Origin: a virus
DNA length: 40,010 bases
Virus record (IMG/VR): IMGVR_UViG_3300034166_001736
Span: 1-40,010 of that record
Reading direction: 5' to 3' (one strand)
The notes below the pieces were generated by a model. The model searched no databases. It saw nothing but the letters and a program-made list of their open reading frames with translations, and was not told the DNA's origin. A program made the position numbers and the translations under genes. Below are positions 11,444 through 39,428 of this stretch, one piece after another; positions within the stretch are counted from its first letter, which is position 1; every line of letters starts with the position of its first letter.

Positions 11444-12364
11444 TTATGTAGAGGTGTTTGCCCCAGTCTCAGTTGGTTCAGTTGGCTCGGGAGGTGTTGG
11501 CGGTAACACGTTCGCTAAAGCTAACTGAAGAGAATTTAGTTGATCTTGCAGTTCTTTTAATTGATCAGAGTTTTCTACTGGAACTTCTTTTATGGTTTCT
11601 ACTGGAACTTCTTTGACGACTTCAACTTCTTTGATGACTTCAACAATTCTTTCTGGCCCAGGAACTTCTTTGATAACTTCTACCTCTTTAACGACCTCAA
11701 CAGGAACTTCCTTGATGACCTCGACTTCTTTGATGACTTCAACAGGAACCTCAACTCGAACTTCTTTAATAACCTCAACTTCTTTGATAACTTCTACTTC
11801 TTTGATGACTTCAACAGGAACTTCCTTGACGATTTCCACTTCCTTAATGACTTCAACAGGAATTTCCTTGACGACCTCAACAATTCTTTCTGGCCCAGGA
11901 ACTTCTTTGATAACTTCTACTTCTTTGATGACATCTTTGAAGATTTCCACAGGAACTTCTTTGACGATTTCAACAATTTCTGTGGGTCCAGGAATTTCTA
12001 TTTCAATAACACGTTCGGGTCCAGGAACTTCCTTGATGACTTCAACAGGAACTTCAACTCGAACTTCTTTGACAACCTCAACAATACGCTCAGGTCCAGG
12101 AACTTCTACTATTACAGGAGAGTTATCGAGTTTTCCAGACATGAAATCATTGAGTTTTTGTAGCTCAACGTCCCGAGCTTTTAGAACCTGAATCTCTTGC
12201 ATAGTTCTTTCAATCTCATTCTGATCTCGTTCAGACTGAGATAAAGCGCGCTCTTCTCTATCTTTAATTTCTTTTTGTTTAGCTTTTATCAAAGCTTCAA
12301 GTTGATCGACACGCTGTTTTGCGGAAAATCCTAACTGCTTTAGCTCTTCGAGTATCTGTGACAT
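11444..12364 (-). CDS. VEV/KEV repeat protein with coiled-coil ends
   Basis: The 306-residue product has three parts. Residues 1-75 are a charged coiled coil. Residues about 80-270 are built almost wholly from short units such as VEVIKEVPVEV and VPGPERIVEVVKE, with the prolines and VPGPE marking longer periods. The C-terminus is a short coil followed by a Pro/Thr tail (PPTPPEPTEPTETGANTST). The alternating V/E/K pattern suggests a long extended rod or beta-type fibre. A perfect late promoter (12397-12404) argues for a virion protein. I have no family assignment. The codons themselves are also repetitive, so length variation by slippage is likely. Confidence 0.7.
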   Translation of the reverse strand: MSQILEELKQLGFSAKQRVDQLEALIKAKQKEIKDREERALSQSERDQNEIERTMQEIQVLKARDVELQKLNDFMSGKLDNSPVIVEVPGPERIVEVVKEVRVEVPVEVIKEVPGPERVIEIEIPGPTEIVEIVKEVPVEIFKDVIKEVEVIKEVPGPERIVEVVKEIPVEVIKEVEIVKEVPVEVIKEVEVIKEVEVIKEVRVEVPVEVIKEVEVIKEVPVEVVKEVEVIKEVPGPERIVEVIKEVEVVKEVPVETIKEVPVENSDQLKELQDQLNSLQLALANVLPPTPPEPTEPTETGANTST

Positions 12365-22858: not shown

Positions 22859-24055
22859 TTAAACGGGCTGTCTAGAAAATTTATCATTAAGACGATTGTT
22901 TCTGGCAAAATTGTCTGGTTCAGCTGGATGATCTTTTTTGGGCAAAGCTATAGAGCTCATAACTAATTTGGCGTGGGTTTCTCCATTTTTAGCATAAAAT
23001 CCTTCGCCAACATTTGTATTGCCTTGACGACCGCCAGGCATTCTGGCTGTCATTCTGAATGGAAATCTTCCAACTTTTTCTGATTTCTCACCAATACCTT
23101 TAGTGATGGCATTAACTGCTCGTTGTAAATGGTTGTGTATTCTGAATGTTCTATTAAAATGTTCTTGGTTTTCATCGATGTGTTGTAAAGCAGCAGTCGA
23201 ATCTTTTCCATCTTTTTGATATCTTGCGCGAACAAATTTCTTTAAATCTTTCACGTTTGACTGTTTGTTGCTGTTAAGAGTGCTATTGAGATACATCTCA
23301 ACATAATTCAATGGTTTGGTCTTGGCTGTTGGATTTCCTTTGCGTAACAGAGGATGAACGTGACCATTTTCAAACAAGTGAGATTCTGTGTAATTAGGAT
23401 GAGAGTGTTCTTCTTCGGCAGCTGTTAGATGTTTTAAAGCTTCTGCTTTACGTTTTGGGGAAATATCCAACTCATCTGGATGCATACTAACATCCATATG
23501 TGCAATTTTGCCCTGTGGATGTTGAGTTGTGGTTCCAGCAAATGAAGGTTTAATAGGGGTTGGACCTTTTTTCGGATCCATTTCAGTGTGGAAAGCGACA
23601 AGATGTGATGCGTTTTCAGTCCCGCCAGTCGTTGGGTGATATGTTACTATATTTCCGCCAAATCCCCCTTCTGGGTTTTTTGAAAGAACATCAAATTGGT
23701 GGGATCCAGGTTCTTTTAAAGTTGCATGTAGATGCTGTGCCAATGGACGTAATATATCATGAAGATGCGGTTTTGGAACAGAACCTTGTGGTCCGTGCAA
23801 TGCTCCAACTTCTTCCGGAGACCCAAGCCATTTTGCGGCGTCTGATTTATAACTTATTGCTTTATCTTTACGAGCTAAAGAAATGGCTCCATCAATTTTT
23901 CTTGTGATTTCTGCCTTTCTAGAAACAACATCACGAAGCAACCCAATCATGGGTTTAGTTCCATCAAGACGAATAGCTGCTTCAGCTGCGTGTCCAAGGT
24001 GGCCGTGACCGCCTTTTGATTCAGCTTCTGTGATAAACTGTTTATAAGTGAGCAT
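22859..24055 (-). CDS. CTS-tagged protein with KxDG ligase-like motif, 398 aa
   Basis: The 398-residue product begins MLTYKQFITEAESKGGHGHLGHA. The first eleven residues are a good T4-type capsid-targeting sequence, with cleavage expected after ITE. Residues 50-60 (ITRKIDGAISL) carry a KxDG motif like the lysine loop of ligases and related nucleotidyltransferases, and HLVAFHTEMD (151-160) resembles a later strand of a family I recall from marine T4-like phages. It is rich in His, Lys and Gly. I infer a packaged protein with possible nucleotide-dependent chemistry; other ligase motifs are not evident. The ribosome-binding site is AGGAAG. Confidence 0.6.
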   Translation of the reverse strand: MLTYKQFITEAESKGGHGHLGHAAEAAIRLDGTKPMIGLLRDVVSRKAEITRKIDGAISLARKDKAISYKSDAAKWLGSPEEVGALHGPQGSVPKPHLHDILRPLAQHLHATLKEPGSHQFDVLSKNPEGGFGGNIVTYHPTTGGTENASHLVAFHTEMDPKKGPTPIKPSFAGTTTQHPQGKIAHMDVSMHPDELDISPKRKAEALKHLTAAEEEHSHPNYTESHLFENGHVHPLLRKGNPTAKTKPLNYVEMYLNSTLNSNKQSNVKDLKKFVRARYQKDGKDSTAALQHIDENQEHFNRTFRIHNHLQRAVNAITKGIGEKSEKVGRFPFRMTARMPGGRQGNTNVGEGFYAKNGETHAKLVMSSIALPKKDHPAEPDNFARNNRLNDKFSRQPV

Positions 24056-24058
24056 TTT

Positions 24059-25483
24059 TTATCTTCCTGACCAAGATCTGTCTTTGTAAAATGCCAAAGA
24101 TTTTCCTATGGGTTTATTTGGCATCAAACCAGACCCCGATTTAATGTTTGTAAATCTTCTATCATGGCTAACAGAAAATAACGTACTACCTGTCGATCTT
24201 TTTATAGTGAAAGACTGAGATCCGGGAGTATAAGAAACTGAAAACTGTCTGTTTGGATCAGATGCATTTTTGATATCAAAATCGTGAGCGTTTCTTAACA
24301 AACGCGGAAGATTGGCCACTTTAGTTTTTGGTTCTTCTCCATCATTAGCTACGCTTACGTGAAAAATTCTAATGACTTTTCTCTCTTTTGATTGTCTGTC
24401 TGGTATTCCAGATATTTCAGAATGAAAATTTTTCAACAAACGACCATGTTCATCTGGGTGCGTTCTAACTTTGCTATAGACTCTATTAAGAGCGCGTGCA
24501 GCAGCAGAATAATAATTTGGTATAGAGTTTTTATCAGAAGATTCTTCATGATGTTTATGTAGCTCATCAGATGTTGGTAATTTTTTTTCTTTTGCTATCT
24601 CATCATATTGTTTTGCTTGTTCTGATCCCTTTGGGATTCTTCTGGTTATTTTAGCAAGCAATTCTTTACCAGATTTATCTGTTTTTTTAAATAATTGGGG
24701 ATTAGAATTAATCACACCTTTGACAGCAAGTAATTTTGTTTGTTTACCATCAGGCGTTTTTTGCATCAAAGGATGATCTTCATCAAAATCCAACGAACTT
24801 TTTGCTTTTTTGTGTAGAGAATCCAGATTTTTTTTGGCTGTCGGCCCCAAAACAGCACCAACCAAATTACTAATGTGATGGTGTAAAACTGCAAATCCTG
24901 GCCCTCTTAGTTTGTCTGATGCACTTTTTTTGCCGCTTTCTCCATATCCAGAAACTTTGAGAGAGACACCAGCTAACAATCCTTCTCCATGTTTTAACGA
25001 AGAAAGAGGATCTTCAGAATGTTCCGAAGTTTCTGTGCTATGTTTTACTATCGGGACAACCACATCAGCATTAGAGGAAACTCCATATTTTTCTTCAACA
25101 CCCCTTTCTTGACCAGCTCCAGTGGCATGCGGAGGCCCAGCTACGGAGAACCCCTCAGTATGAAGATGATGAATAAAATGAGCCGCAGATTTTACTGTAT
25201 CAGAATACAGTTTATCAAATCTACCGTGTTTTAATTTTTTTTTAAACGGTTTCATTTCATCTGATTCGCCGCCATCTTTTTTAAAACTAGCTTGAGAGGA
25301 TTGATGATGCAGTTCATCCAAAGCTTGTTCATGGCTCATTCCAGAAACTCTTTTATTGTAATAGGAGTTTATTGCATGATGAAAAGCGTGTTCGGAAATT
25401 CTTCCATTTGCATCAGTAAGTTCGCCTTTACTTAACTGTGCTTCTGTTAAAAAATTTTCCACAAAATATTTAAAACTGTGCAA
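24059..25483 (-). CDS. CTS-tagged large internal protein, nuclease-like segment, 474 aa
   Basis: The start is set at the TTG at 25483, with AGGAG seven bases upstream. The ATG at 25516 lies only two bases from the late octamer and would be nearly leaderless. With TTG the N-terminus is MHSFKYFVENFLTEAQ, a capsid-targeting-like tag. Residues 137-145 (SNADVVVPI) and 172-181 (GVSLKVSGYG) have the spacing and shape of a PD-(D/E)XK strand pair in which Ser replaces the acidic residue, followed by GPGFAVL. The rest is charged and helical with many His and Lys. An injected DNA-acting protein is plausible but unproven. Confidence 0.55.
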   Translation of the reverse strand: MHSFKYFVENFLTEAQLSKGELTDANGRISEHAFHHAINSYYNKRVSGMSHEQALDELHHQSSQASFKKDGGESDEMKPFKKKLKHGRFDKLYSDTVKSAAHFIHHLHTEGFSVAGPPHATGAGQERGVEEKYGVSSNADVVVPIVKHSTETSEHSEDPLSSLKHGEGLLAGVSLKVSGYGESGKKSASDKLRGPGFAVLHHHISNLVGAVLGPTAKKNLDSLHKKAKSSLDFDEDHPLMQKTPDGKQTKLLAVKGVINSNPQLFKKTDKSGKELLAKITRRIPKGSEQAKQYDEIAKEKKLPTSDELHKHHEESSDKNSIPNYYSAAARALNRVYSKVRTHPDEHGRLLKNFHSEISGIPDRQSKERKVIRIFHVSVANDGEEPKTKVANLPRLLRNAHDFDIKNASDPNRQFSVSYTPGSQSFTIKRSTGSTLFSVSHDRRFTNIKSGSGLMPNKPIGKSLAFYKDRSWSGR

Positions 25484-29501: not shown

Positions 29502-30253
29502 TTGGAGCGGACGACAGGTATCTCGCCTGCCTCTTTGGTTTTAGCTTCGAGGCGACAACGTCATTGCTTCTGGAACACCGCTTTGAGGCCGCCCTTCTTC
29601 ACAAGCTCTAGGCCAATAGTCTTGGCGAACTTGGTGAACTGTTTGAAGTTGAAGAGTTGGATGTCGTCAGTGACGATCACACCACCCCTCACCATGCGTG
29701 GTGCGAAAAACGCGGCTTCCTTCTCCACCAGTTCTACGCGGTGCGGGCCGTCCAAGTGAGCGAAACAGTATTCGTTCACCAACATCCGCACACCGCCGCT
29801 ATAGATCGGTACGCCGTCTGGAAAGAAGGCGAAGAAGTCGTCGTCGGCCAGATTGAAAAACTGGAAGTTGATCTTGTGGTGGTTGGCCAACTGGTAGATC
29901 GACGACATCGCTCGGTTACGCATTTCGTTCGTGTAGTCGAGCACGACACACTCTGTATCCGAGTGCCATTGCGGCATCCCACCGTAGTGGTCGATCAGGG
30001 TCAGCATCCCGCGAAACTTCTTCGCGGCAAGCTCTTCCATAATCATTTGGGTGGAGCCGCCTTCTCGCACGCCGATCTCGGTGGCAAGGTAGTAGCCGTT
30101 CGGCGCCAACTGCACCGCCTCGCGCAGCAATTCATAATCACCGGAATCGGTGCCTAGCTCAATTTTCATCGTACTGTCCTATCATATTTAATCCTTTTCA
30201 AAGTTAGGGGGGATTGGAGCGGACGACAGGTATCTCGCCTGCCTCTTTGGTTT
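29502..30253 (-). mobile_element. tRNA-Gly-targeted cassette bounded by 40-bp direct repeats
   Basis: A perfect 40-bp sequence is found at 29502-29541 and 30214-30253. The right copy is the 3' half of the tRNA-Gly gene, from just after the anticodon to the CCA. The left copy is a displaced 3' half. The 712-bp unit between equivalent points holds one gene that is visibly GC-richer than its surroundings. This is the layout of an element integrated into a tRNA gene with the 3' half restored. No integrase is present. Confidence 0.8.
29561..30169 (-). CDS. SAM-dependent methyltransferase-like cargo gene
   Basis: The 202-residue product has a class I methyltransferase-like pattern. EIGVREGGST (31-40) is the glycine-rich motif I, D60 ends the second strand (LTLIDHYGG), AHLDGPHRVELVE (about 136-148) and GGVIVTDDI (about 160-168) match later strands of the TylF/Methyltransf_24 type. 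The substrate is unknown. By eye it is clearly GC-richer than the neighbours and uses different codons, consistent with recent transfer. The start ATG has AGGA seven bases upstream, inside the cassette. The gene is alone between tRNA-Gly repeats. Confidence 0.65.
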   Translation of the reverse strand: MKIELGTDSGDYELLREAVQLAPNGYYLATEIGVREGGSTQMIMEELAAKKFRGMLTLIDHYGGMPQWHSDTECVVLDYTNEMRNRAMSSIYQLANHHKINFQFFNLADDDFFAFFPDGVPIYSGGVRMLVNEYCFAHLDGPHRVELVEKEAAFFAPRMVRGGVIVTDDIQLFNFKQFTKFAKTIGLELVKKGGLKAVFQKQ

Positions 30254-32267: not shown

Positions 32268-32296
32268 ATTATACCTTATTGATTCCGAGAAGTCAA
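32268..32296 (-). promoter_or_regulatory. Strong early promoter TTGACT-17-TATAAT
   Basis: TTGACT (32296-32291) and TATAAT (32273-32268) are separated by 17 bp on the minus strand. It shares AATAAGGTAT with the 31.15-kb promoter. Confidence 0.85.
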
Positions 32297-32309: not shown

Positions 32310-32334
32310 AAAACCCAGCGCTGGGCTGGGTTTT
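32310..32334 (-). terminator. Intrinsic terminator
   Basis: AAAACCCAGC and GCTGGGTTTT form a perfect 10-bp stem around CCAGC, followed by a T-run on the minus strand. It ends the hairpin-linked operon of small early genes. Confidence 0.92.
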
Positions 32335-32852: not shown

Positions 32853-32877
32853 TTGTTTCTCCATTCTAACTACGACT

Positions 32878-32905
32878 CTACCCCCACTCGTTTGAGCAGG
32901 GGTAG
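32878..32905 (-). repeat. AAAC-loop intercistronic hairpin, copy 1
   Basis: A 12-bp stem with two G-T pairs encloses AAAC, followed on the minus strand by the tail AGAGTCGTAG. It lies between the 286-residue membrane protein gene and the 105-residue gene. Confidence 0.8.
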
Positions 32906-32930
32906 AGGTAGTGCCACCCTTACGGGTCGA

Positions 32931-33791
32931 TTATCCACGCTTGCGCTTGGCTGCAGGCTCATCGTCGAATTCGAAGGCACCGAAGTGCTCTGCAAGGCGA
33001 ACGATATTGTTTTCCATCTTGGAAGCAATTTCTTCGACCTGCTCGATTTCTTCATCGATATTCGGCTCATCGTCGCCGAAACCGCCGTAAACGAAAGAAC
33101 CAGCCATCGCAAAGAGCACAGACATGACTGTGATCATCAGAGCATAGAGCTCTGCTTGGTGGAGGGTAAAGGGTGCTTCAGTAACTGCAGCACCAGAGGC
33201 GACCGTTGCCGTCGCACTCTTAAGATCACTACGGACATTACCCAGTTCCGCAGTGATAGCCTTTCCACGATCAGCCATAGCTTTCAACGTAAAGGGGCCA
33301 CGCTTTCCGTCGATGGGCATCGGATTTCCAGCCGCATCAACATACAGACCACGCGCCAACAGGACTTCCTGGGCGGCAGCGATATCGCTACCAGTCATAA
33401 CCTTGTATTCAGCCTCAAGGTCTGCGATCTGTTTCTCAAGATCGGCTTTGGTAGAAAGAGCTGTACTATAGGCAGTATTACGGTCAGAGTCACCTTGGGT
33501 CGCGTCGTTGACGATATTCTTGAGGGCGATCTCGCCACCATTCTTATCGATCAAACCAGCAACAACCATCAGAGCGAACAGGGGCACGAAGGCCAACCAC
33601 TTACGGCGACGAAAGGCAACCTCGACGGCAACGCCGAGAGAAGCCAGCGAAAGGGCCACGAAGGGACCAATCATACCGATAAATGGCAGCTTGATGGTGT
33701 GCTCAAAACCGAAATACGCCAGATAGCCAGATATCGCTGCCAGACCGAAACCAGCAACGATCAGAACAACTCCGAATATTCGAAGTAGCAT
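32931..33791 (-). CDS. Membrane protein with peptidoglycan-binding-like segment, 286 aa
   Basis: The 286-residue protein has three N-terminal membrane helices (about 3-27, 36-58, 65-83), a soluble part with a coiled coil (about 112-135), and a fourth helix near 218-238. The soluble part includes QEVLLARGLYVD followed by PIDGKRGPFTLKAM (about 141-172), which resembles a peptidoglycan-binding type 1 repeat (GxYxG-IDGxxGPxTxxA). The acidic C-terminus ends in AAKRKRG. By eye it is GC-richer than neighbours. It may sit in the inner membrane and touch the cell wall. The function is unknown. The leader has hairpin copy 2's counterpart upstream. Confidence 0.6.
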   Translation of the reverse strand: MLLRIFGVVLIVAGFGLAAISGYLAYFGFEHTIKLPFIGMIGPFVALSLASLGVAVEVAFRRRKWLAFVPLFALMVVAGLIDKNGGEIALKNIVNDATQGDSDRNTAYSTALSTKADLEKQIADLEAEYKVMTGSDIAAAQEVLLARGLYVDAAGNPMPIDGKRGPFTLKAMADRGKAITAELGNVRSDLKSATATVASGAAVTEAPFTLHQAELYALMITVMSVLFAMAGSFVYGGFGDDEPNIDEEIEQVEEIASKMENNIVRLAEHFGAFEFDDEPAAKRKRG

Positions 33792-33821
33792 ATGTTTTTC
33801 TCCATTCTAGCTACGCCTCTA

Positions 33822-33843
33822 CCCCAGCGAGTTTTCGCTGGGG
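33822..33843 (-). repeat. AAAC-loop intercistronic hairpin, copy 2
   Basis: CCCCAGCGA/TCGCTGGGG encloses AAAC, followed by AGAGGCGTAG. It lies between the tRNA-Glu gene and the 286-residue membrane protein gene. Confidence 0.85.
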
Positions 33844-33858
33844 CGAAGGTTATGTGAT

Positions 33859-33933
33859 TGGTAGTCCCTACGGGAGTCGAACCCGTCTTTCTAGGTTGAA
33901 AACCTAGCGTCCTAACCGATAGACGAAGGGACC
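33859..33933 (-). tRNA. tRNA-Glu (TTC)
   Basis: The 75-base gene has a complete cloverleaf: acceptor GGTCCCT/AGGGACT, anticodon stem CTAGG/CCTAG with loop TTTTCAA (anticodon TTC), T-loop TTCGACT and an encoded CCA. Confidence 0.95.
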
Positions 33934-33938
33934 TTAAT

Positions 33939-34026
33939 TGGTGCGGGCGATCGGACTCGAACCGACACAGGCCTACGGCCTAACAGATTTTAAGTCTGGT
34001 GCGTCTACCAATTTCGCCACGCCCGC
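33939..34026 (-). tRNA. tRNA-Leu (TAA)
   Basis: The 88-base class II tRNA has acceptor GCGGGCG/CGCCCGC, anticodon loop CTTAAAA (anticodon TAA), a long variable arm, T-loop TTCGAGT and an encoded CCA. It is five bases from tRNA-Glu. Confidence 0.95.
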
Positions 34027-34035
34027 TCAAGGAAA

Positions 34036-34254
34036 TTAAGGCTTTCTGAAGCTGCTAATTTCTAAAGAATCAAGCAGATCAATATCAGCTTGAGTTATCC
34101 ATATTAGATCACGCAGACCAGCAGCATAAGCTTCGCGATGCTTCTCGTCATAATGATCCCATATCACTCGTCTCATTTCTGAACGAGTCAGCTTACCAGT
34201 TAAATCGACACCAACTTTGGCGGCGAGTTCGCAGATAGTTTTAAGACAGGTCAT
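34036..34254 (-). CDS. Hypothetical protein, 72 aa
   Basis: The 72-residue product starts behind GAAGGA. It begins MTCLKTICELAAKVGVDLTG, then KLTRSEMRRVIWDHYDEKHREAY, and ends LLDSLEISSFRKP. It is helical throughout; the LTRSEMRR part could be a helix-turn-helix-like segment, but this is weak. The stop is nine bases before the tRNA-Leu gene. Confidence 0.6.
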   Translation of the reverse strand: MTCLKTICELAAKVGVDLTGKLTRSEMRRVIWDHYDEKHREAYAAGLRDLIWITQADIDLLDSLEISSFRKP

Positions 34255-34283
34255 ATCGATTTCCTTCTTTCAACTACGCCTCT

Positions 34284-34307
34284 ACCCCAGCAGGTTTCTG
34301 CTGGGGT
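34284..34307 (-). repeat. AAAC-loop intercistronic hairpin, copy 3
   Basis: ACCCCAGCAG/CTGCTGGGGT encloses AAAC, followed by AGAGGCGTAG. The four inner pairs differ from copies 2 and 4, yet pairing is kept. Confidence 0.88.
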
Positions 34308-34315
34308 GTTGGGCG

Positions 34316-34546
34316 TTACGACCTTTTCTTACGTCGTTTCGCTGCGCGAACTACCGTTTCGGTAGGCTCGACGAGCTCCTCTTTCGTAGTAAGAACATCA
34401 GTGAGCTCGGCGTTGAACGCCTCTATCTCATCAGCTTTCTTATCGAAGTAGGTATTGAGGAGATTATCCGTAACGATCACACCGCGAGTGATACGCTCGA
34501 AAGCGTTAGCAAGGCTGCGGATGCGTTGGACACGGGACTTAGCCAT
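34316..34546 (-). CDS. Hypothetical helical basic protein, 76 aa
   Basis: The 76-residue product has a basic N-terminus (MAKSRVQRIRSLANAFERIT), an acidic middle and a strongly basic end (VVRAAKRRKKRS). The whole is helical and could bind nucleic acid through both ends. Its leader contains GGAGAATATTGA. No family is recognised. Confidence 0.6.
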   Translation of the reverse strand: MAKSRVQRIRSLANAFERITRGVIVTDNLLNTYFDKKADEIEAFNAELTDVLTTKEELVEPTETVVRAAKRRKKRS

Positions 34547-34585
34547 TCAATATTCTCCATTTGCTGCTAATTCAGCTACGCCTCT

Positions 34586-34609
34586 ACCCCAGTGGGTTTC
34601 CACTGGGGT
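34586..34609 (-). repeat. AAAC-loop intercistronic hairpin, copy 4
   Basis: ACCCCAGTGG/CCACTGGGGT encloses AAAC, followed by AGAGGCGTAG, upstream of the 76-residue gene. Confidence 0.88.
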
Positions 34610-34617
34610 GAGGTCGA

Positions 34618-34794
34618 TCAGTAATCGTAATCATCACGATCAGGATCGTACTGATAACGACGAGGAGTTTCTGTGTAGCGATATCGCCACTCAGGGGGAG
34701 AACGCTCTAGAAGCTGTTCTAGGGTTTCCCCATCATTATAGTGGATGATTCCTTCTTCACCAGTTTCTTGAAAGAAGATAGCCATCTTAGACAT
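34618..34794 (-). CDS. Hypothetical acidic protein, 58 aa
   Basis: The 58-residue product starts at the ATG at 34794 behind GGAGAAACTT. It reads MSKMAIFFQETGEEGIIHYN at the start and ends in a run of Tyr, Arg and Asp (YRYTETPRRYQYDPDRDDYD). The acidic, Tyr-rich tail is unusual and could be disordered. No function is recognised. Confidence 0.6.
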   Translation of the reverse strand: MSKMAIFFQETGEEGIIHYNDGETLEQLLERSPPEWRYRYTETPRRYQYDPDRDDYDY

Positions 34795-34821
34795 AAGTTT
34801 CTCCATTCTAACTACGCCTCG

Positions 34822-34845
34822 ACCCCACTGGGTTTCCAGTGGGGT
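34822..34845 (-). repeat. AAAC-loop intercistronic hairpin, copy 5
   Basis: ACCCCACTGG/CCAGTGGGGT encloses AAAC, followed by CGAGGCGTAG. The inner stem order is reversed relative to copy 4 with pairing kept. Confidence 0.88.
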
Positions 34846-34855
34846 GGGCGGGTAA

Positions 34856-35017
34856 TTAAGCAGCGATCAGCTTATGTTCGATACCGAGTTCGGTGAAGTA
34901 AGCAGAAGCGCGACGCGCAACTTCACCATCAGTATACGTCAGCACAAAAGTCTGGCCAGTCCTGGCATTCTTGTGCTTGATAACAAACGGAGCAGCAGCT
35001 TTTTTCGCATTTTTCAT
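34856..35017 (-). CDS. Small basic protein, 53 aa
   Basis: A 53-codon frame starts at the ATG at 35017 with AGGAAA upstream. The product is MKNAKKAAAPFVIKHKNART, followed by GQTFVLTYTDGEVARRASAY and FTELGIEHKLIAA. It is basic with a beta-strand pattern, like a small nucleic-acid-binding or barrel protein. It is flanked on both sides by AAAC-loop hairpins, in the same arrangement as its neighbours, which supports it as a real gene. Confidence 0.65.
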   Translation of the reverse strand: MKNAKKAAAPFVIKHKNARTGQTFVLTYTDGEVARRASAYFTELGIEHKLIAA

Positions 35018-35060
35018 AATCAAGTTTCCTCATTCTAGCCTGATTGCTAGCTACGCCTCT

Positions 35061-35084
35061 ACCCCAGTGGGTTTCCACTGGGGT
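35061..35084 (-). repeat. AAAC-loop intercistronic hairpin, copy 6
   Basis: It has the same stem as copy 4, followed by AGAGGCGTAG, upstream of the 53-residue gene and downstream of promoter region A. Confidence 0.88.
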
Positions 35085-35100
35085 GAGGTCGGCAATTGCG

Positions 35101-35290
35101 CCTCCTAGGCGGAGGTCGCGTCAGTCTCTCTACAATGTCAAACAGTGGAACTGGGAGTGCCCGAAGGCAGGTCTCGATAGTCACTGAACCCTTCCAGAAC
35201 ACAACCATTCTACCCTATCGAACGAGGAAGTAAACCCCTCCAACATTAAATCTTCGTAATGTTGGACTGATTTTATTAGGTTTTTTCTGC
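35101..35290 (-). promoter_or_regulatory. Early promoter region A (diverged copy of region B)
   Basis: On the minus strand the order is AAAAAACCTAATAAAA (35286-35271), a 9-bp inverted repeat CCAACATTA/TAATGTTGG (35265-35240), TTTACT (35234-35229), 16 bp, TAGAAT (35212-35207), then a leader with TGACTATCGAG. All parts recur at 38.1-38.3 kb. No gene is seen from 35085 to 35308. Confidence 0.7.
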
Positions 35291-35308
35291 AGGGACGAAT
35301 ATTTTTCG

Positions 35309-35686
35309 TTAATATTCGTCTTTTTCGTTATCGCTGGTGTCGATTTGGACGTTATCGAACCCGATGACGCCTCTATAACTGAACGTTCTGAAAGATCTCT
35401 CAAAAGTGACAACCCTTCCATGTTCGACACCTTCTGGTTTGGTGATTTCGCTCAGAAGGATACAACCAATCAAACCAGCATCCACAGGATATTCGTGGCC
35501 CGTTTGATCTCTGTAGCAACCATCGCCGTACATAGTTCCGTAGCAAGCGATAGCAGTACCCTGGAAATTAAACTCGCCATCGAGAACATGGTTCCCGAAA
35601 CAAGTCATTGCACAGAAGTTATCCCAATTCTCGTCATCAATGACGTAGCAAAGATCACCGATATAGTATTCACCAGCAGGAAGCAT
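35309..35686 (-). CDS. Phage protein with YIGDLCYV motif, 125 aa
   Basis: The 125-residue product begins MLPAGEYYIGDLCYVIDDEN, a start I recall from a family of beta-rich proteins found in phages and bacteria, followed by YGDGCYRDQTGHEYPVDAGL (about 54-73). The spacing of G, D and aromatic residues suggests a small beta-barrel, perhaps with a Cys-containing ligand site. Its end forms an inverted repeat GACGAATATT/AATATTCGTC with the following DNA, which may help termination. The leader uses GGAGAAA. Confidence 0.62.
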   Translation of the reverse strand: MLPAGEYYIGDLCYVIDDENWDNFCAMTCFGNHVLDGEFNFQGTAIACYGTMYGDGCYRDQTGHEYPVDAGLIGCILLSEITKPEGVEHGRVVTFERSFRTFSYRGVIGFDNVQIDTSDNEKDEY

Positions 35687-35720
35687 TATTTTTCTCCATA
35701 CATGCTTTAGCTACGCCTCG

Positions 35721-35744
35721 ACCCCACTGGGTTTCCAGTGGGGT
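35721..35744 (-). repeat. AAAC-loop intercistronic hairpin, copy 7
   Basis: It has the same stem as copy 5, followed by CGAGGCGTAG, upstream of the 125-residue gene. Confidence 0.88.
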
Positions 35745-35751
35745 GAGGAGT

Positions 35752-36015
35752 TTAACTCGCAAATCGCATCTCTGCGACTTCTTCTTCCCAAGCCTCAACG
35801 GCGAAAGCGCACAAGTAATATCTTGCCGCTTCCAAGCTTCGGAATCCCTTGGTCTTGCCGTTGAAGTCATCAAAGGCTTCAACTTGCCAGAGTATTCCTT
35901 TTTCGTCTCTCGTCTTATAGATGATTCCAACTGGAAGTTTTGTCATCTCGTTGACGAATCGAAGAGTATTGATAGATCCTTTTTCTTCGATGAGTTTGAG
36001 TTTGCGATTGATCAT
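35752..36015 (-). CDS. Hypothetical protein, 87 aa
   Basis: The 87-residue product reads MINRKLKLIEEKGSINTLRF at the start, then KLPVGIIYKTRDEKGILWQV, and ends in an acidic helix (YYLCAFAVEAWEEEVAEMRF). The middle resembles a beta-hairpin domain with a short conserved-looking GKTKGFRSLEAAR segment. The ribosome-binding site is GGAG. The start is three bases after the stop of the 73-residue gene. Confidence 0.6.
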   Translation of the reverse strand: MINRKLKLIEEKGSINTLRFVNEMTKLPVGIIYKTRDEKGILWQVEAFDDFNGKTKGFRSLEAARYYLCAFAVEAWEEEVAEMRFAS

Positions 36016-36018
36016 AAT

Positions 36019-36240
36019 TTACTCCGTTTCAAAAGGACGAACCAGATGGTTGATCTGGCGATCGCTGTAGTTACCACTATGAGTCCAACGCCTGAAGGCG
36101 AAGCAATCAGTGAGCGAATCAGTGCATCGAACAATGAATTTACAGCCCTGGCAGGGAATTTCACGAACAGTTTCTTCCTGTTTGTATTCCCAGACCTTGG
36201 CTCGACCCATAGCAGCGTTGTCTACGGTAAAGGTTTCCAT
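36019..36240 (-). CDS. Cysteine-containing small protein, 73 aa
   Basis: The start is the ATG at 36240, behind AAGGAAAC, which gives METFTVDNAAMGRAKVWEYK as the start. IPCQGCKFIVRCTDSLTDCF (about 30-49) contains four cysteines in a CxxC-x5-C-x6-C pattern, possibly a zinc site. The rest is basic. No family is recognised. The preceding gene is a 33-residue membrane peptide ending two bases upstream. Confidence 0.6.
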   Translation of the reverse strand: METFTVDNAAMGRAKVWEYKQEETVREIPCQGCKFIVRCTDSLTDCFAFRRWTHSGNYSDRQINHLVRPFETE

Positions 36241-36242
36241 AA

Positions 36243-36344
36243 TTAGTTTCCTTGAATCAAGATGTTGATCGAAACAATAACTGATAGCCAAAAGGCCACA
36301 CAGAATAGCATTCCGAAAATGAAACCCCAGTTTATATTTCTCAT
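36243..36344 (-). CDS. Single-helix membrane peptide, 33 aa
   Basis: A 33-codon frame starts at the ATG at 36344 with AGGAG about eight bases upstream. The product MRNINWGFIFGMLFCVAFWL, then SVIVSINILIQGN, is almost wholly one transmembrane helix with a short polar start. It lies between a repeated hairpin (copy 8) and the cysteine protein gene, in the same direction. Such peptides often act on host membrane proteins. No relative is recognised. Confidence 0.6.
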   Translation of the reverse strand: MRNINWGFIFGMLFCVAFWLSVIVSINILIQGN

Positions 36345-36369
36345 GTTACACACTCCTAACTACGCCTTG

Positions 36370-36393
36370 ACCCCAGCGAGTTTTCGCTGGGGT
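36370..36393 (-). repeat. AAAC-loop intercistronic hairpin, copy 8
   Basis: ACCCCAGCGA/TCGCTGGGGT encloses AAAC, followed by CAAGGCGTAG, upstream of the 33-residue membrane peptide. Confidence 0.88.
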
Positions 36394-36399
36394 AAGGAA

Positions 36400-36624
36400 T
36401 CAATCACCGACATAGACGATTCGGGATTGATAATAGTCACTATGGCGTTTTTTCTTTATACCAGGATCGACAAGAACCATGAACCTGCCAAAGGGACTGT
36501 CTTTATGCCTACGTCTTAGACGCTCTACAGCGACCATTGCTTCTGCATCAGAAGCATAACGTTTCTTGATGGCATATTTCTTTTCTACCGTATCATATAC
36601 ACGGTATTTCCAGTTAGAAAACAT
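36400..36624 (-). CDS. Hypothetical protein, 74 aa
   Basis: The 74-residue product begins MFSNWKYRVYDTVEKKYAIK and continues with ASDAEAMVAVERLRRRHKDSPFG and IKKKRHSDYYQSRIVYVGD. It is basic, alpha/beta, with a strand-helix-strand pattern. The leader contains GGAGAAAAAC. No family is recognised. Confidence 0.6.
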   Translation of the reverse strand: MFSNWKYRVYDTVEKKYAIKKRYASDAEAMVAVERLRRRHKDSPFGRFMVLVDPGIKKKRHSDYYQSRIVYVGD

Positions 36625-36650
36625 AGTTTTTCTCCATTAGACACGCCAAA

Positions 36651-36674
36651 ACCCCCACGCTTTTGCGTAGGGGT
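36651..36674 (-). repeat. Intercistronic hairpin, copy 9 (AAAA loop)
   Basis: ACCCCTACGC/GCGTGGGGGT with one G-T pair encloses AAAA. The tail is the most diverged of the ten (TTTGGCGTG). Confidence 0.75.
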
Positions 36675-36681
36675 AGGCAGA

Positions 36682-36927
36682 TTACAGAGCTCTGATCGCT
36701 TCAGTGGCGCGAAGAGTGTATATTTTCTTCACATTACCACGGGAGTCGAGCACCTGCAGAACCTGATCATCTAGGACATAGATGAGTTGAAGCTCTTCAT
36801 CTTCAGCAATCAGAGGCGTTTTGCTTATTACGCCAGAGAAAGACTGATAGTCAGAGTCTTCGAAATCGTTCCATTCAAGCCTTGCAATAAGAGCGAAGAC
36901 TTCTACGTTGGACGTTTCGGTTTGCAT
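36682..36927 (-). CDS. Hypothetical acidic protein, 81 aa
   Basis: The 81-residue product begins MQTETSNVEVFALIARLEWN and is mostly acidic with strong beta-strand pattern (LQLIYVLDDQVLQVLDSRGNVK). It ends IYTLRATEAIRAL. It may be a small inhibitor-like protein, in view of its acidity, but no family is recognised. The leader uses GGAGAAAATGA. Confidence 0.6.
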   Translation of the reverse strand: MQTETSNVEVFALIARLEWNDFEDSDYQSFSGVISKTPLIAEDEELQLIYVLDDQVLQVLDSRGNVKKIYTLRATEAIRAL

Positions 36928-36955
36928 TCATTTTCTCCATTTCAACTACGCCTGT

Positions 36956-36979
36956 ACCCCAGTGGGTTTCCACTGGGGT
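36956..36979 (-). repeat. AAAC-loop intercistronic hairpin, copy 10
   Basis: It has the same stem as copy 4, followed by ACAGGCGTAG, between the ArdC-like gene and the 81-residue gene. Confidence 0.88.
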
Positions 36980-36990
36980 CAGATGGAAGC

Positions 36991-37275
36991 TTAGGCTTCC
37001 ACTTTATCGCACTGATCAAGGTTAAACACTGTGAAATGCTTTGGGCGTTTCATCATGCGCTTCTTACCAGTTTTCTTATCAGCTTCCTCAACCAGAACCA
37101 CACGAGTGATCATGAATCCCGATTCGCCCTTACGGACTTGGAAGCCGTTTTCTTGAGCTTGCCGATAAGTCAGGAAGAAGTTCGAGCTAAACTCACGAGC
37201 TTCCACGGCAGCTTCAAGGATGTCCACGTTTTGACCCGAGTAGGGTTTTTTCGAGACAAAGTTGGCAACGGTCAT
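36991..37275 (-). CDS. ArdC N-terminal-domain-like antirestriction protein, 94 aa
   Basis: The start is the ATG at 37275 behind AAAGGAAA. The product resembles the ArdC N-terminal ssDNA-binding domain. PYSGQNVDILEAAVEAREFS (11-30) corresponds to YxGxNxLLLxxA..., FFLTYRQAQENGFQVRKGESG (33-53) to WLTFxQAxxxGGxVRKGExG, and FTVFNLDQC (81-89) to YxVFNxxQ. Known ArdC proteins add a C-terminal metalloprotease; this one is the N-terminal domain alone. ArdC protects incoming plasmid DNA from restriction, so a phage early protein doing the same is plausible. Neither partner nor target is shown. Confidence 0.72.
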   Translation of the reverse strand: MTVANFVSKKPYSGQNVDILEAAVEAREFSSNFFLTYRQAQENGFQVRKGESGFMITRVVLVEEADKKTGKKRMMKRPKHFTVFNLDQCDKVEA

Positions 37276-37336: not shown

Positions 37337-37413
37337 TGGTAGGCGAGGCAGGATTTGAACCTGCGATGAACCACTTATGAGGTGGCGGCCTTAGACCTCT
37401 TGGCGACTCGCCC
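37337..37413 (-). tRNA. tRNA with CAT anticodon (Met, or Ile if modified)
   Basis: The 77-base gene has acceptor GGGCGAG/CTCGCCT (G1-T72 wobble), anticodon stem GCCAC/GTGGT with loop CTCATAA, T-arm GCAGG-TTCAAAT-CCTGC and an encoded CCA. CAT can mean elongator Met, initiator Met or lysidine-modified Ile; the lack of the initiator GGG/CCC stem disfavours initiator. Confidence 0.92.
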
Positions 37414-37894
37414 TTATTTTTTTGTCTCTCCAAACTTGCCGAAGTTTTTCTTTATGCGCTTCGGATTTTGGTTTGCCTCTGTTAGCCTGACCTCCCCTTC
37501 TGCCAATCTCATTTAGATTGATTTTGGGAAGCATTGCAGCGTAACCAAGTTTTCCATTATCAGAACGTTGTTGTTTTGTTAATTTCTTTAGAGAAGCGGC
37601 ATGCCCCTTTAAAGCGTTCTCTCTAGAAAACCCTCCAACGCCACCAATTTTCATATTATATGAATCTCTTGTCATATAATCTTCAGTTAATTTTTTCTCG
37701 AAAGCGTAAGCTTCTTCTTTATCAACTGTGGTAAAAAGAATTTCCTTTATAAAATTCTTTCTGCCGTGTTTTTTGATGGCGGATTTTACTGCATATCCAG
37801 ACCCCATATAAGAATCATATGGGTTATCTGTTTTGTGGACGCCGATGTAATATTTTTGGTTGACCAAATTTGTTATCTTATAAACAGTATACAT
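37391..37894 (-). CDS. GIY-YIG homing endonuclease
   Basis: The 167-residue protein has the GIY-YIG core: VYKITNLVNQKYYIGVHK (4-21), SGYAVKSAIKKHGRKNFIKE (32-51), and E66 in FEKKLTEDY. The C-terminus contains a NUMOD3-like DNA-binding helix (NRGKPKSEAHKEKLRQVW). Such enzymes cut DNA to spread their own gene. The last seven codons lie inside the tRNA-CAT gene and the TAA stop is in its D-loop. A late octamer within a 16-bp inverted repeat around the start suggests translation is blocked on read-through messages and open on late ones. A tRNA 5' fragment lies directly upstream. Confidence 0.85.
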   Translation of the reverse strand: MYTVYKITNLVNQKYYIGVHKTDNPYDSYMGSGYAVKSAIKKHGRKNFIKEILFTTVDKEEAYAFEKKLTEDYMTRDSYNMKIGGVGGFSRENALKGHAASLKKLTKQQRSDNGKLGYAAMLPKINLNEIGRRGGQANRGKPKSEAHKEKLRQVWRDKKIRASRQEV

Positions 37895-37935
37895 AGAATT
37901 TCTCCAAACCTATGACTTATTTATAAAATAACAAA
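37869..37935 (-). promoter_or_regulatory. Late promoter inside a start-codon-blocking hairpin
   Basis: TTTGTTATTTTATAAA (37935-37920) pairs with TTTATAAGATAACAAA (37884-37869) with one G-T pair. The 35-base loop holds GGAGAAA and the ATG at 37894. A perfect TATAAATA (37925-37918) overlaps the 5' arm, so late transcripts begin without that arm. This mirrors the control of T4 I-TevI. Confidence 0.7.
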
Positions 37936-37940
37936 ATTTA

Positions 37941-37972
37941 CAGTCGGCTCTAACCAATTGAGCTACAAGCCC
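37941..37972 (-). pseudogene. tRNA 5' part, split at the anticodon arm
   Basis: GGGCTTG, TA, GCTC, D-loop AATTGGTTA, GAGC, C and GACTG follow tRNA positions 1-31. The bases after this do not form the 3' strand of the anticodon stem. The amino acid cannot be assigned. Confidence 0.7.
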
Positions 37973-38073: not shown

Positions 38074-38089
38074 GCCCCATGGGACACCT

Positions 38090-38290
38090 AGATCGGTGGC
38101 CCGTCAATCTTTCCACGATGTCAAACAGCGGTATCTGCGGACAGTGATCAAACCGATAGTCAGGTAGGATCGGCCTCGATAGTCACAGAGCCTTCCCAGA
38201 ACAGGACCATTCTACCCCAATGGAAGAGGAAGTAAATCCCCCTCAACATTAAATATTGGTAATGTTTGACTGATTTTATTAGGTTTTTTC
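38090..38290 (-). promoter_or_regulatory. Early promoter region B (diverged copy of region A)
   Basis: The order is AAAAAACCTAATAAAA (38289-38274), an inverted repeat with CAACATTA (38267-38244), TTTACT (38236-38231), 16 bp, TAGAAT (38214-38209), then the TGACTATCGAGG leader. It would drive the tRNA/GIY-YIG/ArdC-like unit. From 37895 to 38351 no protein gene is seen. Confidence 0.7.
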
Positions 38291-38351
38291 CGTTAACCCC
38301 AAACTTTTTCGTTAATTTTCATTAATAAATGCCAAAACACGCCTAAAAACG

Positions 38352-38609: not shown

Positions 38610-39428
38610 TCAGTTCTCCACGACTTCCGGAACAAACGCAGACCAATCACTATCAAGATCAACCGTAGCTTCTGGTTTGAAGCCGCGATTCTTTTCGAGT
38701 CCGTGGTACCCAAAGGGATTGCACAGAATGCGAGTCGAGCCGATCATATAATCATTGTTATGATGCATATGACCATGAAACCACAGTTTGATCTGGGGTC
38801 TATCTGAGATGAATTCGAACAATTCAGTGGCGTAAGCTGCATTCATGGGATCGCCTTTGAATCTTTCGTGCACGCTCAGATAACTGGGTGCTGTATGACT
38901 GATAACAACGACCTTCTTGTGGTCCAGAGCTTTCTCGAGCGTGTGCATGCTCTCGCGATGCCACACAAGGGTGTTCTCTGGAGAATACAGCCACCTATAG
39001 TCGTTCATTTGACCTCTAGCTTGCTGCATCACAAGGGGATTCGCGTTACCAAAATCAGTCCACAGAGTGGCACCGAAGAATCGAGTGTCGCCAAACTCCA
39101 CATATTCGTTTTCCAGAAACCGAATATTGTTATATTTGGAAAGATAGTCTTTGATCACATCGATATAGCTTCCATGATTCACAAGTTCTTTTTCTCTCCA
39201 GCGATAGAGCTCGTGATTCCCGCCAATTATAAGAACATGGGGGTATTCTTTGCTTACACGATCAAAGAATTTATCATAGAGCTTCTTTCTCTTAGGATTC
39301 TGGTCAACCAGATCATAAGCAAGGATGATGTCTCCAGCAAGAACAAGAAGGTCTGCTTTCTCTTTGTTTTTTGGAAGAAAGTTGTTTCCAAACTCAAGAT
39401 GCAGATCGCTCATATATGCGATTTTCAT
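38610..39428 (-). CDS. Calcineurin-like metallophosphoesterase
   Basis: The 272-residue protein has the standard metallophosphoesterase motifs: SDLHLEFG (7-14), LAGDII (about 29-34), GGNHELYRW (about 69-77), ISHTAP (about 177-182) and FHGHMHHNND (about 218-227). These give a two-metal site for phosphate ester hydrolysis. The substrate may be nucleic acid, cyclic nucleotide or phosphoprotein and cannot be told. I choose the ATG at 39428 behind GGAG over the ATG at 39440, which overlaps the CCA of a tRNA remnant. Confidence 0.88.
   Translation of the reverse strand: MKIAYMSDLHLEFGNNFLPKNKEKADLLVLAGDIILAYDLVDQNPKRKKLYDKFFDRVSKEYPHVLIIGGNHELYRWREKELVNHGSYIDVIKDYLSKYNNIRFLENEYVEFGDTRFFGATLWTDFGNANPLVMQQARGQMNDYRWLYSPENTLVWHRESMHTLEKALDHKKVVVISHTAPSYLSVHERFKGDPMNAAYATELFEFISDRPQIKLWFHGHMHHNNDYMIGSTRILCNPFGYHGLEKNRGFKPEATVDLDSDWSAFVPEVVEN

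Follow-up and report, generated by a model that had tools for sequence, protein, structure and literature searches.

Hairpins in a small-gene block of an uncultured phage

The 40,010-base fragment analysed here, IMG/VR record IMGVR_UViG_3300034166_001736 from an uncultured phage (hereafter the window, meaning this whole stretch), carries at 32.9–37.0 kb a block of small genes, mostly of unknown function and mostly without family hits, whose borders are marked by copies of one hairpin. A first-pass annotation had listed ten such hairpins between cistrons. All ten are present on the minus strand, each with a 24-mer core and with coordinates slightly adjusted (cores 32880-32903 and 33821-33844; Table 1), and they mostly lie between cistrons, except that 35061 is preceded by a promoter-bearing leader and 33821 follows tRNA-Glu rather than an open reading frame (ORF). 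Their stems comprise 10 bp, perfect or with G·U pairs. The inner stem varies as GTGG/CCAC, GCGA/TCGC, GCAG/CTGC, CTGG/CCAG, ACGC/GCGT and, at 32880, GCTC/GAGT, and the ACCCC/GGGGT outer pairs hold generally, but not at 33821 (GCCCC/GGGGT, with an outer G·U). The shared tail proposed earlier is exact (GAGGCGTAG) in six copies and includes GGCGTAG in eight, with variants at 36651 (TTTGGCGTGT) and 32880 (AGAGTCGTAG), and the sequence AATGGAGAA expected ahead of the start codon is exact in six of the ten but not in the remaining four.

By its PhoH, primase, thymidylate synthase and ribonucleotide reductase families, the window is a fragment of a T4-superfamily phage. One of its proteins is common to Caulobacter phage Cr30 and Stenotrophomonas phage DLP_6, and an overlapping contig, 99.97% identical to the window, encodes a T4-type DNA polymerase with 48% identity to cyanophages. 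A close isolate relative was not found, and protein searches with the block genes and a GMP-reductase-like gene matched only the two near-identical contigs. The match of the first block gene to the ArdC N-terminal domain (Table 1) suggests that the block carries anti-host genes.

Covariation of the stem as sense RNA

Relatives were found with a pattern that leaves the inner stem free (CCCCN5AAACN5GGGGN4GGCG), and 51 copies are now known over four distinct uncultured phages including that of the window. The covariation analysis used the 42 gap-free copies. In this alignment 96.4% of the cells of the 10-bp helix are paired, and both sides of a pair have changed in 72 cells, compared with 18.9±3.3 in shuffles, which bears out the earlier view of covariation as a sign of a structured RNA under selection. 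The covariation score reaches 0.522 against 0.140±0.018, a value attained by 0 of 500 shuffles, and slid controls stayed at or below 0.106. Four C-G pairs next to the stem base are invariant and, because they never vary, uninformative on covariation. Among interior pairs, 18 G·U but 0 A·C combinations occur (16 distinct cases; binomial p=3e-5). Both would be equally acceptable in a DNA cruciform, a reading rejected on this asymmetry; selection therefore acts on the sense RNA. A covariance model scores family members at up to 57 bits (E about 1e-14), well above chance expectation, and hairpin formation is predicted with a probability above 0.9 in all 47 folded contexts.

Nine of the ten window copies have an AAAC loop and the one at 36651 has AAAA, so that the described invariance stands within the window; it does not extend to the relatives, since AAAC is found in 28 of the 51 copies, the others being mostly A-rich (AAAA or AAAG), with GTC and CCG in one phage (G005, see below) and GAAA in another copy.

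Outside the stem, the start of the tail (GAGG, AAGG, GGC, GTC, CAG or ATC) pairs with the nucleotides that separate the stop codon from the hairpin (CCTC, CCTT, GCC, GAC, CTG or GAT, respectively). The duplex score of this outer helix is 518, compared with 453±12 after reassignment of tails to other copies within a phage, with none of 2000 permutations reaching the observed value; in the window alone the permutation test gives p=0.25 and is powerless, because the window tails hardly vary. Part of the shared tail thus forms the 3′ strand of a short outer helix, an explanation that does not cover the later portion of the tail (CGTAG, CGTGTC or CATTGTG). Taken together, the alignment statistics show an element selected as a folded sense RNA with a 10-bp stem, an A-rich loop and a short outer helix.

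Distribution among phages

The three further phages are represented by 3300008448_000130 (G003), 3300027892_000107 (G004, to which another record, G006, is 99.95% identical) and 3300047678_000274 (G005). With these, the two outcomes that the first-pass annotation had named as contrary to its proposal, no covariation and no copies in other genomes, have been tested, and neither applies. All copies lie in one homologous small-gene block, located between a metallophosphoesterase gene and a short MSDDVFYIRTGDKI-type gene where the record reaches that far. A hairpin sets off nearly every small gene of the block from its neighbour. The covariance model detected no further copies elsewhere in these phage records, none inverted or in non-transcribed places, none in the 25 kb further upstream covered by contig 3300043786_000936, and none in the first 150 kb of Cr30 or in the stretches of DLP_6 and S-RIM4.

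Wider searches gave no additional family member. With the pattern GGGGTNGAGGCGTAG, the matches listed other than the copies of this phage were single and chance-like, without an array by the covariance model; the pattern ACCCCN4GAAACN4GGGGT had 40 matches and no array, and further pattern scans of IMG/VR and GTDB genomes yielded chance matches only, among them L209 and the contig L210 of a Chloroflexi metagenome-assembled genome. BLASTN searches for distant relatives, with a single element and with a G004 block against phage records, returned nothing meaningful. In a scan with Rfam 15 only tRNAs exceeded the gathering threshold and no family corresponded to the hairpin, and literature searches revealed no described relative of the element.

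Fixed spacing and gene exchange at the hairpins

The distance from stop codon to hairpin is mostly 5–10 nucleotides (nt), and the linker from hairpin to AUG measures 28.3±2.1 nt in 36 ordinary cases. In ten further linkers of 39–45 nt a second hairpin is possible, which would leave 21–28 nt unpaired. Exceptions to the spacing are window copy 33821, which follows a tRNA, G005 copy 23221, which precedes one, and window copy 35061 after its promoter leader; the two copies beside tRNA genes show that a terminating or initiating ribosome is not strictly required. A ribosome covers roughly 12–15 nt past a stop codon and 20–25 nt ahead of an AUG.

Genes shared between the phages are collinear in 36 of 43 cases inside the block vs 139 of 142 outside, corresponding to 7 and 3 displaced genes, respectively (Fisher p=0.0016). 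For four gene families (f3, f5, f6 and f7) the upstream neighbour differs in every carrier phage, always with a hairpin in between. We further compared flank similarity at junctions sharing only one neighbour gene (500 permutations). The 5′ flank tracks the upstream gene (0.52 vs a null of 0.35) and the Shine-Dalgarno (SD) region the downstream gene (0.57 vs 0.39), neither value being reached in any permutation; the partner change therefore falls at the hairpin. The hairpin core itself tracks neither neighbour strongly (0.52 and 0.57 vs a null of about 0.50) and is 0.93 identical where both neighbours match. As judged from these comparisons, genes have been gained, lost and moved singly, with the joints at the hairpins. 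Concerted evolution within phages was considered and rejected, being nominally significant for the tail only (0.546 vs 0.509, p=0.012) and not for the core.

The transcription unit and neighbouring features

Good promoter matches in the window block occur only at 38236 and 35234 on the minus strand (Table 1), with none beside the other hairpins, and the same holds for G004. The transcription unit of the block appears to run from the promoter at 38236 to the terminator at 32334-32310, and the host-type promoters together with the small genes point to an early operon. Both promoters lie in leaders of about 220 nt (38080-38320 and 35097-35317, minus strand) that are about 75–81% identical and conserved well downstream of the promoter; this duplicated leader is possibly a structured leader RNA.

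The hairpins themselves do not resemble ordinary terminators, in agreement with the first-pass annotation. The 8 nt after the stem contain on average 2.3 T, with five or more in only 2 of the 51 copies, and in a terminator scan all ten window copies failed and a single G004 copy passed. Most copies are thus unlikely to terminate transcription in the usual way, while the few TTTT-tailed ones could still do so weakly.

Table 1. Features of the hairpin block and its borders, in window coordinates and in the order of transcription.
Feature	Coordinates	Strand	Remarks
Sigma70-like promoter, TTTACT-16-TAGAAT	38209..38236	-	block head, within leader 38080-38320
ArdC-N gene	36991-37275	-	first block gene; matches ArdC N-terminal anti-restriction domain, Pfam PF08401
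Hairpin ACCCCAGTGG AAAC CCACTGGGGT	36956..36979	-	between ArdC-N gene and 81-aa gene; outer pairing CTG/CAG
Hairpin ACCCCTACGC AAAA GCGTGGGGGT	36651..36674	-	outer pairing GCC/GGC; tail TTTGGCGTGTC
Hairpin ACCCCAGCGA AAAC TCGCTGGGGT	36370..36393	-	outer pairing CCTT/AAGG
Hairpin ACCCCACTGG AAAC CCAGTGGGGT	35721..35744	-	outer pairing CCTC/GAGG
Sigma70-like promoter, second copy, TTTACT-16-TAGAAT	35207..35234	-	inside block, between hairpin 35061 and upstream gene
Hairpin ACCCCAGTGG AAAC CCACTGGGGT	35061..35084	-	leader after internal promoter; outer pairing CCTC/GAGG; second small hairpin CTAGC..GCTAG next, ahead of SD
Hairpin ACCCCACTGG AAAC CCAGTGGGGT	34822..34845	-	outer pairing CGCC/GGCG
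Hairpin ACCCCAGTGG AAAC CCACTGGGGT	34586..34609	-	outer pairing CCTC/GAGG; second small hairpin GCTG..CAGC ahead of SD
Hairpin ACCCCAGCAG AAAC CTGCTGGGGT	34284..34307	-	outer pairing ACGCC/GGCGT
Hairpin GCCCCAGCGA AAAC TCGCTGGGGT	33821..33844	-	between tRNA-Glu and 286-aa membrane-type gene; outer pairing CCTT/GAGG
Hairpin CTCTACCCCTGCTC AAAC GAGTGGGGGTAGAG	32876..32907 (core 32880-32903)	-	14-bp stem, outer helix continuous
U-tract terminator AAAACCCAGCCCAGCGCTGGGTTTT TTTTCATTTT	32310..32334	-	ordinary type; closes block
Sigma70-like promoter, TTGACT-17-TATAAT	32268..32296	-	next transcription unit, directly after terminator

Some further observations concern the surroundings. At 37337-37960 (minus strand) the 5′ half of a broken tRNA (GGGCTTGTAGCTCAATTGGTTAGAGCCGACTG) immediately precedes a GIY-YIG homing-endonuclease ORF (37391-37894), after which an intact, unrelated tRNA-Met follows; the endonuclease gene seems to have disrupted a tRNA gene. 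A 306-aa protein encoded at 11444-12364 (minus strand) consists largely of VEVIKEVPVE-type repeats and has no PHROG match. An exact 40-nt direct repeat (29502-29541 and 30214-30253, 712 nt apart) flanks a 202-aa ORF at 29561-30169. Past the last hairpin, G003 (about 38790-38950) and G005 (about 23530-24060) share a similar stretch (GTCCCTAGTACCACTC..TAAAATCTTCGA) with no clear ORF, possibly a small RNA.

Possible functions of the hairpin

The functions left to consider are those of an mRNA barrier or stabiliser, a device for ribosome traffic or initiation, and a protein site. We consider it about as probable as its opposite (roughly 0.5) that the hairpins form the borders of single-gene cassettes in one polycistronic early-type operon common to a clade of T4-superfamily phages, likely acting both as mRNA shield or stabiliser and as shuffling joint. 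With a terminating ribosome on one side and an initiating 30S subunit on the other, almost no naked RNA would remain between the genes, and the hairpin would close off each cistron at the RNA level, most likely by stabilising the message or barring ribonucleases; cleavage next to the hairpin may also occur. Each gene would thereby be self-contained, and the repeated element could provide short homology for cassette shuffling without harm to expression. The constant geometry, in which ribosome footprints would abut the hairpin on both sides, favours such a shield. More tentatively, the element may represent a new class of border hairpin without promoter or terminator, which would render genes independent expression modules while also being the joint at which they are exchanged, and so insulate genes naturally as operons evolve in modular fashion.

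Several points weigh against the shield. Stabilisation or cleavage is deduced from the DNA rather than from transcripts, and the tight hairpin-to-AUG distance could instead reflect a role in translation initiation. The preservation of spacing by second hairpins is suggestive, being weak copy by copy and mostly non-significant, with several of the copies orthologous, and only a few displaced genes underlie the collinearity comparison. Furthermore, the predicted accessibility of the start region is not measurably changed by the hairpin (0.548 vs 0.543 when the hairpin is shuffled, p=0.42), so that the idea of a hairpin that keeps upstream sequence from pairing with the start site is unsupported on average.

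A translation element, i.e., a ribosome standby site or insulator about 28 nt before the AUG that blocks upstream coupling and fixes downstream initiation, is conceivable, if rather unlikely. It would account for the tight distance and for second hairpins in long linkers, as well as for the SD region moving with the downstream gene and for the position of window copy 35061 in a 5′ leader, and context dependence is slightly reduced when the hairpin is present (spread of predicted accessibility over swapped contexts 0.045 vs 0.052, p=0.006). The unaffected mean accessibility speaks against it, as do the tRNA behind G005 copy 23221, the terminal copies ahead of no clear ORF, and an outer helix involving bases fixed to the upstream stop. 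A binding site for a phage or host RNA-binding protein, making the block a post-transcriptional regulon, is a less probable option still: an A-rich loop kept while the inner stems change and the many copies within one operon would fit, but the GTC, CCG and GAAA loops mean that no loop base is strictly required.

That the hairpins are composite promoter-terminator cassettes like the promoter early stem-loops (PeSLs) of RB49/phi1 is improbable. They share the setting, a T4-superfamily phage with a block of small, mostly unknown genes and stem-loops where shuffled genes meet, but U-tract and promoter are missing at most copies, and a gap of about 28 nt to the AUG leaves too little room for both a promoter and a leader. 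Least credible is a purely DNA-level recombination site (cruciform, recombinase target or transposon-like palindrome) without any RNA role; although genes are shuffled at the element, the G·U/A·C asymmetry is expected only of sense RNA, and orientation and spacing to stop and start codons are fixed. The preferred reading remains a promoterless border element, probably an mRNA shield or stabiliser, that doubles as a shuffling joint.

Comparison with known systems

Repeated hairpins between cistrons are familiar from enterobacterial operons, where repetitive extragenic palindromes and bacterial interspersed mosaic elements (REP/BIME) are thought to shield mRNA 3′ ends. The phage hairpin shares this placement, but is unrelated in sequence, phage-borne, present once per junction and fixed in spacing, whereas REPs are scattered across chromosomes and associated with RAYT transposases. 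The RNase III sites between T7 early genes are likewise intercistronic hairpins of a phage early operon; they are long and bulged and lack the motif shared here. At 10–14 bp, the present stems fall short of the double-stranded length usual for an RNase III substrate (about 20 bp or more), and processing by RNase III is therefore unlikely.

The nearest precedent is provided by the PeSL cassettes, which reportedly occur in RB49/phi1 and other T4-type phages (work ascribed to Arbiol et al. 2010 and Comeau et al. 2014). In both systems a T4-superfamily phage carries a block of small, mostly unknown genes with many stem-loops placed where genes have been shuffled, and the shuffling role is alike. 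However, PeSLs, as described for T4-type phages (PMC4503421), combine a sigma70-like promoter with a terminator, whereas the present hairpins have no promoter of their own and usually no U-tract. Both defining features were tested and are absent at most copies, and we therefore do not file the element as a PeSL. In contrast to PeSLs, the stem-loop covaries as sense RNA and keeps fixed distances to stop codon and AUG within one operon that has normal promoters and terminators.

Known T4-type shuffling joints thus add a promoter and a terminator per gene, whereas here a related outcome seems to be reached by an RNA hairpin alone within one operon. If the proposed RNA role is true, genes could be exchanged without a polycistronic message losing its function, a parallel in nature to engineered operon insulators, and the hairpin would provide a searchable signature for gene-swapping islands where anti-host genes may collect, as here beside a relative of ArdC-N.

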